Shown: positions 2,608 through 53,642 of the stretch, one piece after another | Position numbering within the stretch: position 1 is the first letter of the stretch | Layout: every line of letters begins with the position of its first letter | NCBI GenBank assembly: GCA_903917345.1 | Contig: CAIXAE010000010.1 | Coordinates: 62,001-126,000 of the forward strand | Length of the DNA: 64,000 nt | Direction: 5' to 3' | DNA from: an uncultured Methylococcaceae bacterium | GTDB lineage: Bacteria; Pseudomonadota; Gammaproteobacteria; Methylococcales; Methylomonadaceae | Position numbers and translations under genes: made by a program | The notes under the pieces: generated by a model | Databases searched by the model: none | What the model was told of the DNA's origin: nothing | Seen by the model: the letters and a program-made list of their open reading frames with translations, nothing else

Positions 2608-3303
2608 CTACGGCCCGACAGTCACTCGTTGTACTGCACTGTGCTCACCATTTGCCTCACCTTTATCAAACCACCGAACACGATATTCTCTAATCTCTGG
2701 GGCTAAAGGATCCAACAAAGGCCGGATATCCAAGTACGGTTTAACCATAGAGATGGCTAAAAATGCCCAAGTCCCATTGTTACGCCGACTATCAATAGAA
2801 ATACCATCATGGCGGTATTTAATATAACTGATGTTGACTTGCTCAATTAACGGGCCCCGTTCTGTCATGACCGTGTACTCAGGGGTTAAATGTTCAGTCG
2901 CATCTACACCGCCAACAATACCTAAATCTAAACCGATGGAATCGGTATAACCTGTGCCGATTTTAATGCGCGCCACCAAATTATATAAACGCGTTAACAC
3001 ACCCGGCTCTGGCGCAGGCGTAGGTGCTGTCATGGGCGCATGAATGGGTAATGTGCAGAGGGGCGTAGCGGGACCAAAACCCATAATGCCTTTAAAAGCG
3101 GTGGCTTCAATAGCGCTTTGTTGAATGGCTGGATACCAGGTTTGCAAGATCCAATTATAGTAATTGACATCCGTGAGGGTTAAAGCCAGTTCAGCCGGGT
3201 TAAGCGCTAAAACAGTGGCGTGTATCTGTACCTTTGTGACGAAGTTGGAAAGCCAAATGACGCGATCGGCTTCGTTTTTTGGGAAATAACTTTGAGTAAT
3301 CAT
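2608..3303 (-). CDS. Conserved hypothetical protein (all-alpha N-terminus plus C-terminal beta domain)
   Basis: Long ORF with normal codon composition; no recognised enzyme motif. Confidence 0.6.
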   Translation of the reverse strand: MITQSYFPKNEADRVIWLSNFVTKVQIHATVLALNPAELALTLTDVNYYNWILQTWYPAIQQSAIEATAFKGIMGFGPATPLCTLPIHAPMTAPTPAPEPGVLTRLYNLVARIKIGTGYTDSIGLDLGIVGGVDATEHLTPEYTVMTERGPLIEQVNISYIKYRHDGISIDSRRNNGTWAFLAISMVKPYLDIRPLLDPLAPEIREYRVRWFDKGEANGEHSAVQRVTVGP

Positions 3304-3398: not shown

Positions 3399-3880
3399 CA
3401 CTGTCGGCGTCATGACTGGCGTTGTGAGCGGAACCGCTGGCAACGTGGGCGACGACCCTGACACTGTGAGCGCTAGCGCTGAGCATGTCGGTGTAAATAC
3501 GGGTGGTATTGACCCTGTGTTGGCCCTAGCCAGGGAGGGTTATGAGGTGGGAGAAAAGGCCCCCAAGGGGGGTGAAAACTATCTGGCAGTGTGAGTGATA
3601 ACACCCGCACTACCCGCGAGAACATCGACAACGCCAGCGTTTACGCTGACACCAGCAGAGACGTGGCTGACAAAGGCCGTCATGACGCCGGCAGTGTCGG
3701 CAACAACGCTAAGGGTGCTAGGGTTGTCGTTGATACCCAGCGGACGTTTGCCCCTAATGGCGGCGAATACGCGAGATATGTCAGCGATAACGCCCACAAC
3801 CTCTGCGTTATCGCTCGCCATGCCGGTTCAGACGTGGACTCCCTCGGCGAGAACACAGACAACACAAGGGTAAAGAAATA
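3399..3880. repeat. GC-rich degenerate repeat patch including an imperfect inverted repeat (3399-3429 versus 3666-3696)
   Basis: CACTGTCGGCGTCATGACTGGCGTTGTGAGC at 3399-3429 (+) matches CACTGCCGGCGTCATGACGGCCTTTGTCAGC on the minus strand of 3666-3696 (26/31 by eye). Several overlapping open frames on both strands. Confidence 0.6.
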
Positions 3881-37795: not shown

Positions 37796-39085
37796 TTATT
37801 TAGGATGGAATGTGAATGTAAACGATCTAAATTCTCTAGCGAATAATTCTTTATCTGCAGGAACGGGTAAGGGAGACGCTTTATGAACCGCATTTTCGGC
37901 CGATCTATCAAATATCTCATCACCACTACTTGTGATGACTTCAGCATCTATTACAGTACCATCTGACATTAAACGCACCCTAATAGTACATTTTAAGCCT
38001 TCAGCCGCATCGACAGGACGGATCCAGCTTCGATCAACCTTTTTCATAATCGCTTGCTTGGCCTGCTCTGCTTCACCCGCTTGCGCAGCGGCTTTAGCTT
38101 GTGCTGCGGCAGCGGCATCTGCAGCCGCCTTAGCTTGTGCAGCTGCAGCCGCTTCAGCCTTAACTTTAGCCGCGGCCGCCGCCTCTGCATCAGCTTTTAC
38201 TTTTGCAGCAGCCTCCGCTTTAGCTTTTGCCGCGGCATCAGCCTTTGCCTTTGCCGCGGCCGCGTCTGCATCGGCCTTAGCCTTGGCAGCTGCTTCTGCC
38301 TTGGCTTGTTTAGCAGCTTCAGCTTTAGCCTCTGCGGCGGCTTGTTCTTTGGCAGCCTGAGCTGCCTTTGCCGCTTCTGCTTTAGCTTGTTTTGCAGCTT
38401 CGGCCTTGGCTTCTGAAACCGCTTGCTCCTTAGCTTCTTGCGCTGCTTTTGCTGCCTCTGCCTTGGCTTGTTTAGCGGCCTCTGCTTTGGCTTCTGAAAC
38501 CGCTTGCTCTTTGGCAGCCTGAGCCGCTTTCGCAGCTTCAACTTTCGCTAATTTTGCGGCTTCCGCTTTAGCTTCAGCCGCGGCTTGTTCTTTCGCCTCT
38601 TTGGCGGCCTCAGCTTTAGCTTGCTTTGCGGCTTCTGCTTTAGCCTCAGCCGCGGCTTGTTCTTTGGCTTCTTTAGCCGCTTGTTCTTTCGCCTCTTTGG
38701 CGGCCTCTGCTTTAGCTTGCTTTGCAGCTTCTGCCTTAGCTTGTGCAGCTGCCTGTTCTTTAGCTTCTTGCGCTGCTTTTGCCGCTTCTGCTTTAGCTTC
38801 TTTAGCGGCCTCTTCCTTTACTTGTTTTTCAACATCAGCCTTTTCTTGGTCGGCTTCCTTTACTTCTGGCGCTGCTTTTTCTTTAACAGTCTCAGCTTCT
38901 TTAATGGCGGCCGCTTCTTCCTGAAGGCTTGCCGTATCAATCATCGTTGCATGAATAATTTCAGAAGCGGCCTCTTCTTTAGGCGTAGGCTTATAAAGCG
39001 CACTTAAGACAAATAAACCCAGTAGCGTTACATGTAACGCAATCGCTAATAACGTAGGCTTAGTAAATCTATTCTTTTTTTCCAT
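37796..39085 (-). CDS. tolA: TolA with extended Ala/Lys/Glu repeat domain
   Basis: N-terminal TM, long KAEAAKQAKAEAAKEAKEQAA repeats, C-terminal LKCTIRVRLMSDGTVIDAEVITSSGDEIFDRSAENAVHKASPLPVP. Confidence 0.95.
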   Translation of the reverse strand: MEKKNRFTKPTLLAIALHVTLLGLFVLSALYKPTPKEEAASEIIHATMIDTASLQEEAAAIKEAETVKEKAAPEVKEADQEKADVEKQVKEEAAKEAKAEAAKAAQEAKEQAAAQAKAEAAKQAKAEAAKEAKEQAAKEAKEQAAAEAKAEAAKQAKAEAAKEAKEQAAAEAKAEAAKLAKVEAAKAAQAAKEQAVSEAKAEAAKQAKAEAAKAAQEAKEQAVSEAKAEAAKQAKAEAAKAAQAAKEQAAAEAKAEAAKQAKAEAAAKAKADADAAAAKAKADAAAKAKAEAAAKVKADAEAAAAAKVKAEAAAAAQAKAAADAAAAAQAKAAAQAGEAEQAKQAIMKKVDRSWIRPVDAAEGLKCTIRVRLMSDGTVIDAEVITSSGDEIFDRSAENAVHKASPLPVPADKELFAREFRSFTFTFHPK

Positions 39086-49765: not shown

Positions 49766-50002
49766 ATGCCTAGTCTAGTCGTTAGAAATCTTGACGAATC
49801 TATCCTTATTGCACTTAAAGAAAGAGCTGTTGCGCATCAACGGTCAACAGAAGCGGAACACAGAGCGATTTTGGCAGAGGTATTAAGCAAACCTAAGCGT
49901 AAATCTTTTGCTGAAGCCTTATCAAGCATTCCTGATGTTGGGAATGATGAGGATTTTGTCAGAATACAAGACGACACCCCTGCAAGCCATGTATTTAATT
50001 GA
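49766..50002 (+). CDS. FitA-like ribbon-helix-helix antitoxin
   Basis: MPSLVVRNLDESILIALKERAVAHQRSTEAEHRAILAEVL; overlaps the downstream PIN gene. Confidence 0.88.
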   Translation: MPSLVVRNLDESILIALKERAVAHQRSTEAEHRAILAEVLSKPKRKSFAEALSSIPDVGNDEDFVRIQDDTPASHVFN

Positions 50003-50408
50003 TACCAATATTATTAGTGAAATTAGAAAAGGTGAAAAAGCTGATCAAGGCGTAAAGCATTTTTTTGATACCGCAAACCAAAACAGTACACCACTGTATA
50101 TTTCATCAATAACCATCGGTGAATTAAGGAGAGGGGTCGATTTAATTTATCATCGTGGTGATGATACGCAAGGTAGATTATTAGAGAATTGGTTAAATTC
50201 AATTCTTGATGAATACCAAAACAATATTCTTAATATAGATTATCAAATTGCCTTGCTTTGGGGAAGATTAAGAGTGCCGGAGCCTCAACATGCGCTGGAT
50301 AAATTGATTGCAGCCACTGCATTAAACTACGGACTGATTGTTGTTACACGAAATACCAAAGACTTTGAGAATACTGGTATTAGACTCTTAAACCCTTTTA
50401 TAGATTAA
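49989..50408 (+). CDS. PIN-domain toxin (VapC/FitB family)
   Basis: MYLIDTNIISEIRKGEKADQG; SSITIGELRRGV; LDKLIAATALNYGLIVVTRNTKDFENTGI. ORF-track start at 49908 trimmed to ATG 49989. Confidence 0.9.
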   Translation: MYLIDTNIISEIRKGEKADQGVKHFFDTANQNSTPLYISSITIGELRRGVDLIYHRGDDTQGRLLENWLNSILDEYQNNILNIDYQIALLWGRLRVPEPQHALDKLIAATALNYGLIVVTRNTKDFENTGIRLLNPFID

Positions 50409-50459: not shown

Positions 50460-51095
50460 TTAGATAATAATTTTTGAAACAGGATCACAAAAATCGGTGA
50501 GGCCTAGTGGGGTCAGTGCATTCATTCTAAAAAAGCATTTTGAGCCAACCGTTAAACCAGAAATCGTCATTCTTGCACTGGTACTACTTCCCGCTGATTT
50601 CCAACCTGCCGCTGTAGTGGGTATTTCACCTATTGTAATCTCCACATTATAAGCCCCTGCACTTTCAATCGCTTTCATCACCGCGTCTACCGTACCCGAA
50701 ACCAAACCGTCATTAATCACTAAGGGCAATTTATTAAAAGGTGCGGGCTGCAGGGTACAATGAAAACCACTAGAAAGTATTTTAGCGTCATCACCGTTGG
50801 CAATTCTCTCTACATACGCGGCTAAATTATGGAATATGTCATCCGCAATCTTTTCTTTAGCATGTTCTTACGCGGTTGTTAATGGACCCCCGCCTTGTGC
50901 AGCTAATGCCGCTATTTCTAAATTATCGACCGCCAGTTTAGCCTCTGCTAAAGGTACATCCGGCATCTGATAATTTATATTCCCTGTCATATAAACTAAT
51001 ACACTGCGATAAAAAATAATTTTATCTGGCACGGGCAATCTAATAAACTCTAAAGAGACTTTAGTCTTTTTCATATAAAACCTTAATATAATCAT
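50460..51095 (-). pseudogene. Conserved hypothetical protein interrupted by one in-frame TAA (at 50868-50870)
   Basis: The ORFs 50868..51095 and 50460..50729 are in the same frame. The segment between them translates without further stops as EHAKEKIADDIFHNLAAYVERIANGDDAKILSSGFHCTLQPAPFNK and runs into LPLVINDG. A likely start is at 51074 (MKKTKVSLEF). Confidence 0.7.
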
Positions 51096-51362
51096 TTAGG
51101 AAGGAGTCTTGAGTATACGCAGTAAAGTCAAAAAGCTAGCATTTATTTTCCGCCGACCCACATTAATCCTCATAAATAATAGGTTTTATTGGCTAATTTT
51201 AAACTTAATTACCTCTACAGTCCCCGCACACCCTAAGATCTTAAGAAATAATGGTGATTGAGAAAATAATTTAAATACAGTCCCATTTTTAGCAAATTAA
51301 CGGCAATGCTTGCGGTGAATTTATTATGTGCCCAAGAACCAGAGCTCGTTGTTGAGGAACTC

Positions 51363-51416
51363 TGCGTGCATGTCCAATACCTGTGCAAGCTTGCACAGGT
51401 ATTGGACATGCACGCA
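51363..51416. repeat. Perfect 54-bp palindrome
   Basis: TGCGTGCATGTCCAATACCTGTGCAAGCTTGCACAGGTATTGGACATGCACGCA is its own reverse complement. Confidence 0.9.
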
Positions 51417-51650
51417 CAGTCCTTATGCGAGCCTGCACAGATACTCGACCTGCACGCACAGTCCTTATGCAAGCCTGCACAGATACTCGACCTGCATGCA
51501 CAGACCTTATGCAAGCTTGCACAGGTACTCGACCTACACGCACAGTCCTTATGCAAGCCTGCACAGATACTCGACCTGCACGCACAGTCCTTATGCAAGC
51601 CTGCACAGATACTCGACCTGCACGCACAGTCCTTATGCAAGCTCGCATAG
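51411..51650. repeat. 42-bp tandem repeat array, five full units plus a partial unit
   Basis: Consensus CACGCACAGTCCTTATGCAAGCCTGCACAGATACTCGACCTG at 51411, 51453, 51495 (variant), 51537, 51579 and partial from 51621. Confidence 0.95.
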
Positions 51651-51715
51651 AGTTCCTCCTCCTCTTTTAAACTTTCCTGCAAAATAAGAATCATCATCTG
51701 TAATAAACCCGACAA

Positions 51716-51739: not shown

Positions 51740-51870
51740 ATGTAAGAAATAAAACAGAACCCTTAAACTTTTCAGCACAACCTTCCCTCAGCAACCTTAT
51801 TAATATCAATAGGGAGCGCTATTTCTAACCAAAACAAAATCTTTGGCATGTCATTTGCAAACACCATACA

Positions 51871-51894
51871 CGTTATGTACTAAAGTACATTCCG
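51871..51894. promoter_or_regulatory. Candidate ModE-like operator (proximal)
   Basis: CGTTATGTA-CTAAAG-TACATTCCG: 24 nt imperfect dyad about 70-95 bp upstream of the porin start. Confidence 0.45.
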
Positions 51895-51965
51895 TTATAT
51901 AATTGAACACGAGCCCAACGAATCCCTCTTCGTTGAAACTTTTTGTACCGCTTTAAGGAACCCTG

Positions 51966-53642
51966 ATGACATTAAAGAAACGTCGTCCCGTCGGACATTC
52001 GACACTTAAATTAATTATCCCTGGTTTGATGATGCTTAATTATCCAACGCTAGGACTTTCTGCTGAAACTCTCAATGCGGATCCTGCCGCCACAAAGCTA
52101 CCCACGCCTACCTACACTAGTGCCCCTATGGCGGCTTACAACTTTATGATGGATGATGCGCTACTAGGTAATAGTTATGAAAAGCCGGTCTGGAATGTAC
52201 ATGACACCTTAGGCTTGCCGAAATGGTTGTCGTTTGGTGTGGAACAAAGAACGCGATATGAGTCAGTTTCCGATGCCTTTAAAGGCTCACAAAAAACGTC
52301 GCCTTCTTCACTCGGCCAATCAAAGGGCGGGGATCAGCAAATCGCTTTACAAACAGACTTTTGGTTACAAGCCAAGTTTAATAAATTTCGACTTGCCGTG
52401 GAATTAATGGATGCCAGAACGTTAGGCTCAGATGTTAGCAAAAGCACAAATGCCAGCAATAGTCCTAACACAACCCCGTTTCCATCAAACAACTCATCTG
52501 TTGATACTTGGGATTTTGCTCAAGGCTATGCCTCTTGGGCTGATCAAAACGTATTGAATAGTGGCTTAGGCACTGAGATTAAATTCGGCCGCCAAACCAT
52601 GGATTTGGGCAGTCGTCGCTTAGTCGCCAGACCCATATTTAGAAATACCGTTAATAACTTTACCGGCGTAAGAACGCGCGTAATAGCTTATGACAAATGG
52701 CAATTTAATGCGTTTGCTACGGTACCCGTGCTCAGATACCCTAATTACAATTCGATAACAACAAACCCCAATTTACTGAATAACACAAAATGGGATGAAG
52801 AAGATTTTCATACTTGGTTTTCAGGCGGCATTTTTGAATACAGCAACTTATATAAAGATATCAACGCAGAGGTGGCTCTGTATCAGTTAAACGAAGGAGA
52901 CAGTTCTCTAAACGCCACTCGTAATCGCAATTACTGGACACCGACGGTGCGTATTTATCAAAAACCAGCCAAAGGGAAGTTCGACTTTCAAGCGGAAGGA
53001 ATGGGGCAATTTGGTACGGTTAAATATGCTGCAACCAGCACTTATGCTAATACAACCCAACTCCATGAAGCGTGGTCCTCACATGTAGAAGCAGGCTATA
53101 GTTTTGACATGCCTTGGTCACCCCGATTCTATTTAGAATATGACTATGCCAGTGGCAGTTCTAATTGGAAAGACCATTCTTCTGCAGGTGTTGATGGTCG
53201 ATTTGACCCATTATATGGCGCCTCTGATTTTGACTTTGGACCGACAGGCATTTATGGTGCCTTCCAAAGAAGTAACATCAACTCTCCGGGCTATAAATTG
53301 GACTTTGCACCCACTAAAGATTTGTCATTCAGGTTTCAACAACGTTTAGTGTGGTTAGCCTCTGCAACTGATTGTTGGGGTGGAAATACCTGCACCGCTG
53401 CCACGCAGCCCGCATTAGCTAATGGTAATGGTTCCTTTGTGGGTGATCAATTAGGTTTTACCGGACGTTATAACTTTAATAGCAGTATTAATTTTGATGC
53501 CGGCTGGTACCACTTATTTAAAGGTGAATTTGCTAAATCAGCGCATACCACTTCAAGCACAGGCATTTATTTAACCGGAGTCACTCCACCGCCTGGCGCT
53601 GATACTGACTATTTCTTTGTTCAAAGTCAGTTAAGATTTTAA
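51966..53642 (+). CDS. Alginate export family-like outer membrane porin
   Basis: Signal peptide; WLSFGVEQRTRYESVSDAFKG; beta-strand-rich; terminal aromatic YFFVQSQLRF. Confidence 0.8.
   Translation: MTLKKRRPVGHSTLKLIIPGLMMLNYPTLGLSAETLNADPAATKLPTPTYTSAPMAAYNFMMDDALLGNSYEKPVWNVHDTLGLPKWLSFGVEQRTRYESVSDAFKGSQKTSPSSLGQSKGGDQQIALQTDFWLQAKFNKFRLAVELMDARTLGSDVSKSTNASNSPNTTPFPSNNSSVDTWDFAQGYASWADQNVLNSGLGTEIKFGRQTMDLGSRRLVARPIFRNTVNNFTGVRTRVIAYDKWQFNAFATVPVLRYPNYNSITTNPNLLNNTKWDEEDFHTWFSGGIFEYSNLYKDINAEVALYQLNEGDSSLNATRNRNYWTPTVRIYQKPAKGKFDFQAEGMGQFGTVKYAATSTYANTTQLHEAWSSHVEAGYSFDMPWSPRFYLEYDYASGSSNWKDHSSAGVDGRFDPLYGASDFDFGPTGIYGAFQRSNINSPGYKLDFAPTKDLSFRFQQRLVWLASATDCWGGNTCTAATQPALANGNGSFVGDQLGFTGRYNFNSSINFDAGWYHLFKGEFAKSAHTTSSTGIYLTGVTPPPGADTDYFFVQSQLRF

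Follow-up and report, generated by a model that had tools for sequence, protein, structure and literature searches.

Plasmid iterons are arrays of sites of ~17-22 bp that lie about two turns apart beside the gene whose Rep product reads them. BOX elements of Streptococcus pneumoniae are made up of 45-bp inner units, have no associated gene and are described by an RNA-structure model. In the ArgR operator, two 18-bp imperfect palindromes are placed 3 bp apart and the protein is positioned on one face of the helix (PMC6640053). RAYT/REP pairs combine intergenic palindromes with an adjoining transposase gene, gene and palindromes co-evolving (PMC2817692), and TIGR-Tas systems comprise 8-12-nt dual repeats with ~9-nt spacers and 36-nt guides beside a tas gene (PMC12045711). 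In the present study, an array of phased palindromic sites and the gene family adjoining such arrays were analysed, starting from a 64,000-nt stretch of DNA (the window) from a member of an uncultured methanotroph genus. Array and multicopy gene look like an undescribed two-part system, and no described match to it was found in the literature available as open-licence papers.

Results

Architecture of the array and its locus

The 42-bp tandem repeat reported in the initial annotation was confirmed by TRF (42 bp x 6.2 copies, 92% match, 51384-51642). As the basic period, however, 42 bp did not hold, since the basic unit is 21 bp and consists of an 18-bp palindrome (CTRTGCAAGCYTGCAYAG) plus 3 nt, which is doubled to 42 bp in the window copy. 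Written as 21-bp rows, the site types are CTGTGCAAGCTTGCACAG, TTATGCAAGCCTGCACAG and the variant CTCGACCTGCACGCACAG, the alternation of which generates the 42-bp repeat. The palindrome noted earlier was recovered at a length of 62 bp (Table 1) and is composed of three sites, with sites 1 and 3 mutually inverted around site 2 (CTGTGCAAGCTTGCACAG). The inverted 10-bp pair said to bound the array exists, but not as a conserved end: it does not accompany the arrays that occupy this locus in G029, G021 and G007 and is thus private to the window copy, for which reason the reading of GAGGAACTCT as a terminal repeat was rejected.

Table 1. Coordinates of the array-related features in the window
Feature	Position	Strand	Description
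Window array	51360..51650	.	14 palindromic sites (18 bp + 3 nt) at an exact 21-bp pitch; alternating types give the 42-bp repeat
62-bp palindrome	51359..51420 (halves 51359-51389/51390-51420)	.	97%; left end of array
GAGGAACTCT	51354..51363	+	Left member of inverted 10-bp pair; not conserved at orthologous loci
AGAGTTCCTC	51649..51658	-	Right member of inverted 10-bp pair; not conserved
Leader, array to FN3-like gene	51075..51359	-	Homologous up to 51280 in G029 and up to 51313 in G007
FN3-like array-linked gene	50466..51074	-	203 codons, helical + FN3-like; intact in G029, G021 and G007
Second 21-bp-period array	3594..3866	.	13 units, weaker; upstream of 231-aa protein gene
231-aa protein gene	2608..3303	-	Adjoins second array; family different from FN3-like, 6 copies in the source genome

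Between a minus-strand gene and porin-modABC, i.e. at the locus of the window array, arrays were also found in G029, G021, G007 and G008; their unit sequence has diverged between the species and the 21-bp pitch is maintained. In G029, G021 and G007 the array has been retained together with an intact gene despite sequence divergence. The window copy of the gene carries a premature in-frame TAA at codon 69 (50868-50870), the remainder being colinear, and because of this stop the window module may be in decay, or its only present role may be that of an upstream region for the divergent porin-modABC genes. A second alpha-type array (the type with the consensus CTRTGCAAGCYTGCAYAG) lies upstream of trpF in the source genome, and G029 has one there too.

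The porin-modABC region (window 51815-52400 onward) is 96.8% identical to that of G027, which far exceeds the ~86% at trpF, and this identity begins abruptly at 51815, so that horizontal transfer of the porin/molybdate operon is likely. The G027 region sits in a different context and has no array. Regulation of the porin as the primary role of the array was rejected on account of this array-free region and of the genome-wide association of the arrays with the FN3-like family.

The 231-aa protein possibly represents a second array-linked family; array support at its other copies is weak. Toxin-antitoxin genes (FitA/VapC-like, HigA-like) recur near arrays (window 49766-50408; L234:612-1034; L166:1733-2134; L208:12403-12702). 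Elsewhere in the window, a long Ala-rich coding tandem repeat with periods of 24, 81 and 96 bp is located on the minus strand (38058-38818), the product of which would by its composition be a TolA-like or histone H1-like protein.

A genome-wide class of phased arrays

A motif-free scan for periods of 10-60 was applied to 356 kb of non-ORF DNA within 1.55 Mb (~63%) of the source genome and returned 23 non-ORF arrays at a score >= 0.15. All but one of these (22/23) have a period of 20-22 or 40-43 bp; possible coding repeats coincide with or adjoin one or two of the 23 (L210:11495, window 20241). From locally shuffled sequence the scan returned zero arrays at a score >= 0.09, and such a period was likewise missing from the 172 kb of non-ORF DNA sampled as controls from E. 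coli (34 kb) and two relatives, namely G149 from another genus (66 kb) and the large-genome congener G018 (71 kb). In G018, one array of this class nonetheless adjoins a linked-gene copy (L317). The absence of a second occurrence, named in the initial annotation as part of what would refute it, is excluded by the many such arrays in the source genome and its relatives.

The arrays contain several unrelated palindromic motifs, among them AAACTTAAGTTT (20 bp), TTTTGATATYAAAA, AAAGCTTT, CTACACATGTAG (22 bp) and ACAATGnnnCATTGT, and some are laid out as repeats with variable spacers (GTAGTTAC + 11 variable nt). A search with a profile of alpha arrays detected further arrays in the source genome and in relatives, all of them inside the genus, and the alpha arrays of several species display strict 21-bp phasing of 18-bp palindromes. 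On each strand of the source genome the 16-bp alpha core pattern was counted 11 times, nearly always within the two alpha arrays.

Members of the AAACTTAAGTTT family (L166:415-914, L208:11753-12192, L215:8724-9043, L299) have a period of 20 bp, not 21, and where linked to an FN3-like gene they are found downstream of it (L294, L299, L313), most other families being located upstream. The complete genome of the congener G018 additionally holds a non-ORF block of ~11 kb consisting of 56-57-bp repeats (CCAAGACCGTTAAGCGCCTTGG...; L272:1-11500, corresponding to C1 ~200-211 kb).

The linked gene family

The proteins encoded beside the arrays have a length of ~204 aa, with three predicted N-terminal helices followed by an FN3-like domain. 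Judged from sequence, the C-terminal part probably adopts the FN3 fold: its profile matches FN3 chains of solved structures (best 1e-14), and Pfam fn3 hits fall just below the gathering score. The single-sequence structure model (pLDDT 38.6) was too poor for use. Domain and profile searches with the linked proteins revealed no known DNA-binding domain.

The family is present in 27 of 35 genomes of the genus. Among ~200 genomes from other genera of the taxonomic family it was detected in two, one match being weak, and full-length matches in 399 sampled genomes of the phylum were confined to the source genome. Similar proteins of ~200 aa are presumably annotated as 'fibronectin type III domain-containing' in other phyla. 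Searches of plasmids, phages and viral contigs returned one isolated pattern match and no relatives of the linked gene, and an origin from such elements was rejected on these grounds.

An array with a period of 20-22 or 40-42 bp is found no more than ~700 bp from the gene in 12/17 copies of the source genome and, at the same distance limit, in 17/19 copies taken from 19 other species; of the copies lacking one, L312 and L315 are truncated at contig ends. Such an array was present in 9 of 584 random stretches of the source genome (1.5%), which gives a binomial probability of 3e-15 for the linkage. Linked arrays are mostly located upstream of the gene and in four cases downstream, and several arrays are without a linked gene of the family (trpF, glnE/chrA and others). 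Similarity of the array motifs tracks similarity of the proteins, with a Mantel r of 0.52 overall (0/2000 permutations), 0.43 among proteins of less than 60% identity (0/5000) and 0.39 among source-genome paralogues at different loci (30/5000). Joint descent alone could explain this covariation.

The dispersal of the family bears on the proposal that the array is a mobile repeat. Its 17 copies are scattered over the source genome, and paralogues at different loci share no more than the gene and up to ~190 bp of leader, their flanks being unrelated; the unit has consequently moved or been copied. On this reading, gene and array, or the array alone, would spread by transposition or recombination, the palindromes being recognition or by-product sequences of a putative transposase as in RAYT/REP/BIME. 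RAYT genes and REPs likewise adjoin and co-evolve (PMC2817692), and gene-free alpha arrays with common edges occupy several places in G007. The strongest rival to operator function, and one that is compatible with binding by protein dimers, joint mobility of gene and array is nevertheless an unlikely, if serious, explanation. The unit contains neither a transposase nor an integrase, and its position is stable, in that several species have it at the porin locus and other species pairs likewise keep gene and array between the same flanks. Features of MITEs or other transposable elements did not emerge either: the 10-bp ends are restricted to the window copy, conserved terminal inverted repeats or other conserved ends beyond gene and leader are lacking, and no empty site with a target duplication was found. 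Of the mobile-repeat proposal, the dispersal hence stands, and none of the hallmarks (conserved termini, target duplication, transposase) could be added to it.

The gene-free alpha copies in G007 are elements of ~330 bp with the shared edges TTTACGATAAAGYGTAATCGAGYCATATTAG ... CCGTTGYGATTGTAT (C126:208-498, C289:356-625, C269:850-1139 and C75:16466, the last one truncated), possibly a non-autonomous form.

Double-stranded sites, RNA or protein

Palindromy exceeded that of column-shuffled profiles significantly in 25 of 30 gene-linked arrays and not in the other five. Conservation is uneven between columns in 23 of the 30, against the uniform decay of a tandem repeat, and in 5/7 alpha arrays the spacer is more variable than the motif (p<0.05). 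These values bear on a neutral satellite, in which slippage or unequal exchange yields palindromic tandem units that drift and are homogenised without function. Concerted change of the units between species at the same locus would be expected of it, as would the near homogeneity of the window copy (92%) with its recent inverted duplication and the broken gene beside it. Unrelated motifs with one period of 20-22 bp, uneven columns, linkage to one gene family with motif-protein covariation, and controls devoid of such arrays make this origin improbable.

The arms of the palindromes do not covary. In 12 alpha-type arrays 769 Watson-Crick pairs were counted versus 765 expected, and over the 30 gene-linked arrays z was -1.1, with no bias of G-U over A-C on the gene-sense strand. 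As in dimer-binding sites, the half-sites are conserved independently and not by compensation. For a non-coding RNA array, whose units would be transcribed as tandem hairpins or as short guides (TIGR-like, CsrB-like), one could cite the strong predicted folding of the window copy (z = -7.5) and the repeat-plus-spacer layout of some arrays. The folding value follows from the 62-bp palindrome and the palindromic units, though, and the former also accounts for the Rfam result on the window array, i.e. chance hits to hairpin models only, all below gathering scores. Another array folds barely better than its shuffles (z -2.0), a motif like TTTTGATATCAAAA has no room for a loop, and a search for PF01798 (Nop), in which the archaea positive control was detected, found no such protein in the source genome. 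Together with the arms that do not covary, this renders an RNA array very improbable, and hairpins or structured RNA, one of the options in the initial annotation, were rejected as the general case.

Its other option was a variable repeat protein. The open reading frames 51306-51650 (+) and 51233-51715 (-) are present as given, further long ones cover the window array in other frames, and several arrays elsewhere span long open frames as well. The 21-bp units are palindrome-like and free of stops in several frames, so long frames on both strands follow automatically. Comparison of pN/pS between units in all six frames identified none under purifying selection, and a frame and its mirror on the opposite strand gave similar values. 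Stops and 1-nt shifts interrupt arrays of the orthologous locus and of relatives, and periods of 20, 40 and 41, none of them a multiple of three, occur among the sister arrays. The repeat-protein reading was rejected on this basis, and a heptad-repeat protein encoded on one strand can hardly be expected any longer. Since the arms lack covariation and no frame is conserved, dyad-symmetric double-stranded protein sites fit better than hairpins or a protein.

Discussion

Non-coding arrays of unrelated sequence that agree exactly in helical pitch and adjoin the same gene family imply an undescribed nucleoprotein system. Its module would consist of an array of ~10-27 sites, a leader of roughly 60-300 bp and a gene of ~204 codons for three predicted helices and an FN3-like domain. 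The array is a non-coding cluster of dyad-symmetric sites, best read as double-stranded, two helical turns apart, at many of which protein dimers, most simply of the linked-gene product or a partner, could bind on one face of the helix and cooperatively form a filament or loop controlling the adjacent gene or genes. The data show the period, the palindromy, the absence of coding, the genome-wide class, the gene linkage and the covariation of motif and protein. From site layout and gene linkage we infer protein binding, the identity of the binder and a regulatory outcome, and our tentative preference, which we rate at slightly less than an even chance, is that the arrays are multi-site operators occupied on one face by a dimeric protein associated with the linked gene, in the simplest case its product. 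Counting against such operators, 10-27 of them per gene are far above ordinary regulatory need. The missing DNA-binding domain, the arrays without a linked gene or downstream of it, the five arrays of non-significant palindromy and joint descent as a source of the covariation weigh against this preference too.

As the motif changes from module to module, the reader of an array would be a dedicated protein or one closely matched to it. That every FN3-like paralogue recognises a private array, with more than a dozen distinct protein-array pairs co-evolving and multiplying on one chromosome, is a bolder proposition that we regard as possible but doubtful. If true, it would mean a new class of DNA-binding proteins as well as a chromosomal nucleoprotein element of a new kind; the paralogues would supply orthogonal protein-DNA pairs ready-made by nature, and binding assays could directly test a gene family that has no assigned function.

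Some arrays alternate short repeats with short variable spacers like TIGR-Tas, but their units of 20-22 or 40-42 bp differ from the 36-nt unit of that system, and identity with TIGR-Tas was rejected for want of a Nop protein in the source genome. With BOX the arrays have in common the intergenic element in which a variable number of tandem inner units stands between fixed edges; BOX differs from the phased arrays by its 45-bp units, the missing gene and the RNA model. REP/BIME and RAYT resemble them as intergenic palindrome arrays beside a gene family with which the motif co-evolves, whereas the arrays described here have a strict pitch of 20-22 bp and no GT(A/G)G-headed REP layout, no Y1 tyrosine transposase was matched among the array-linked proteins searched, and in place of the more than 100 dispersed palindromes of REPs the alpha core reaches 11 per strand, with sites confined to arrays. 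As a phased site array adjoining a gene, the iteron-Rep arrangement would be the closest functional match. Here, in contrast, the arrays are chromosomal and occupy dozens of loci, the sites are palindromic and not asymmetric, and the gene is no Rep homologue, the linked proteins showing no Rep domain and the related DNA not being on plasmids. Neither the alpha consensus CTRTGCAAGCYTGCAYAG nor the other array motifs resemble the ARG-box consensus. In architecture the ArgR operator is nonetheless the closest match, its layout of 18-bp palindromes at a 3-bp spacing recurring in the alpha arrays, with two boxes and one fixed consensus there versus 10-27 sites and several motifs here.
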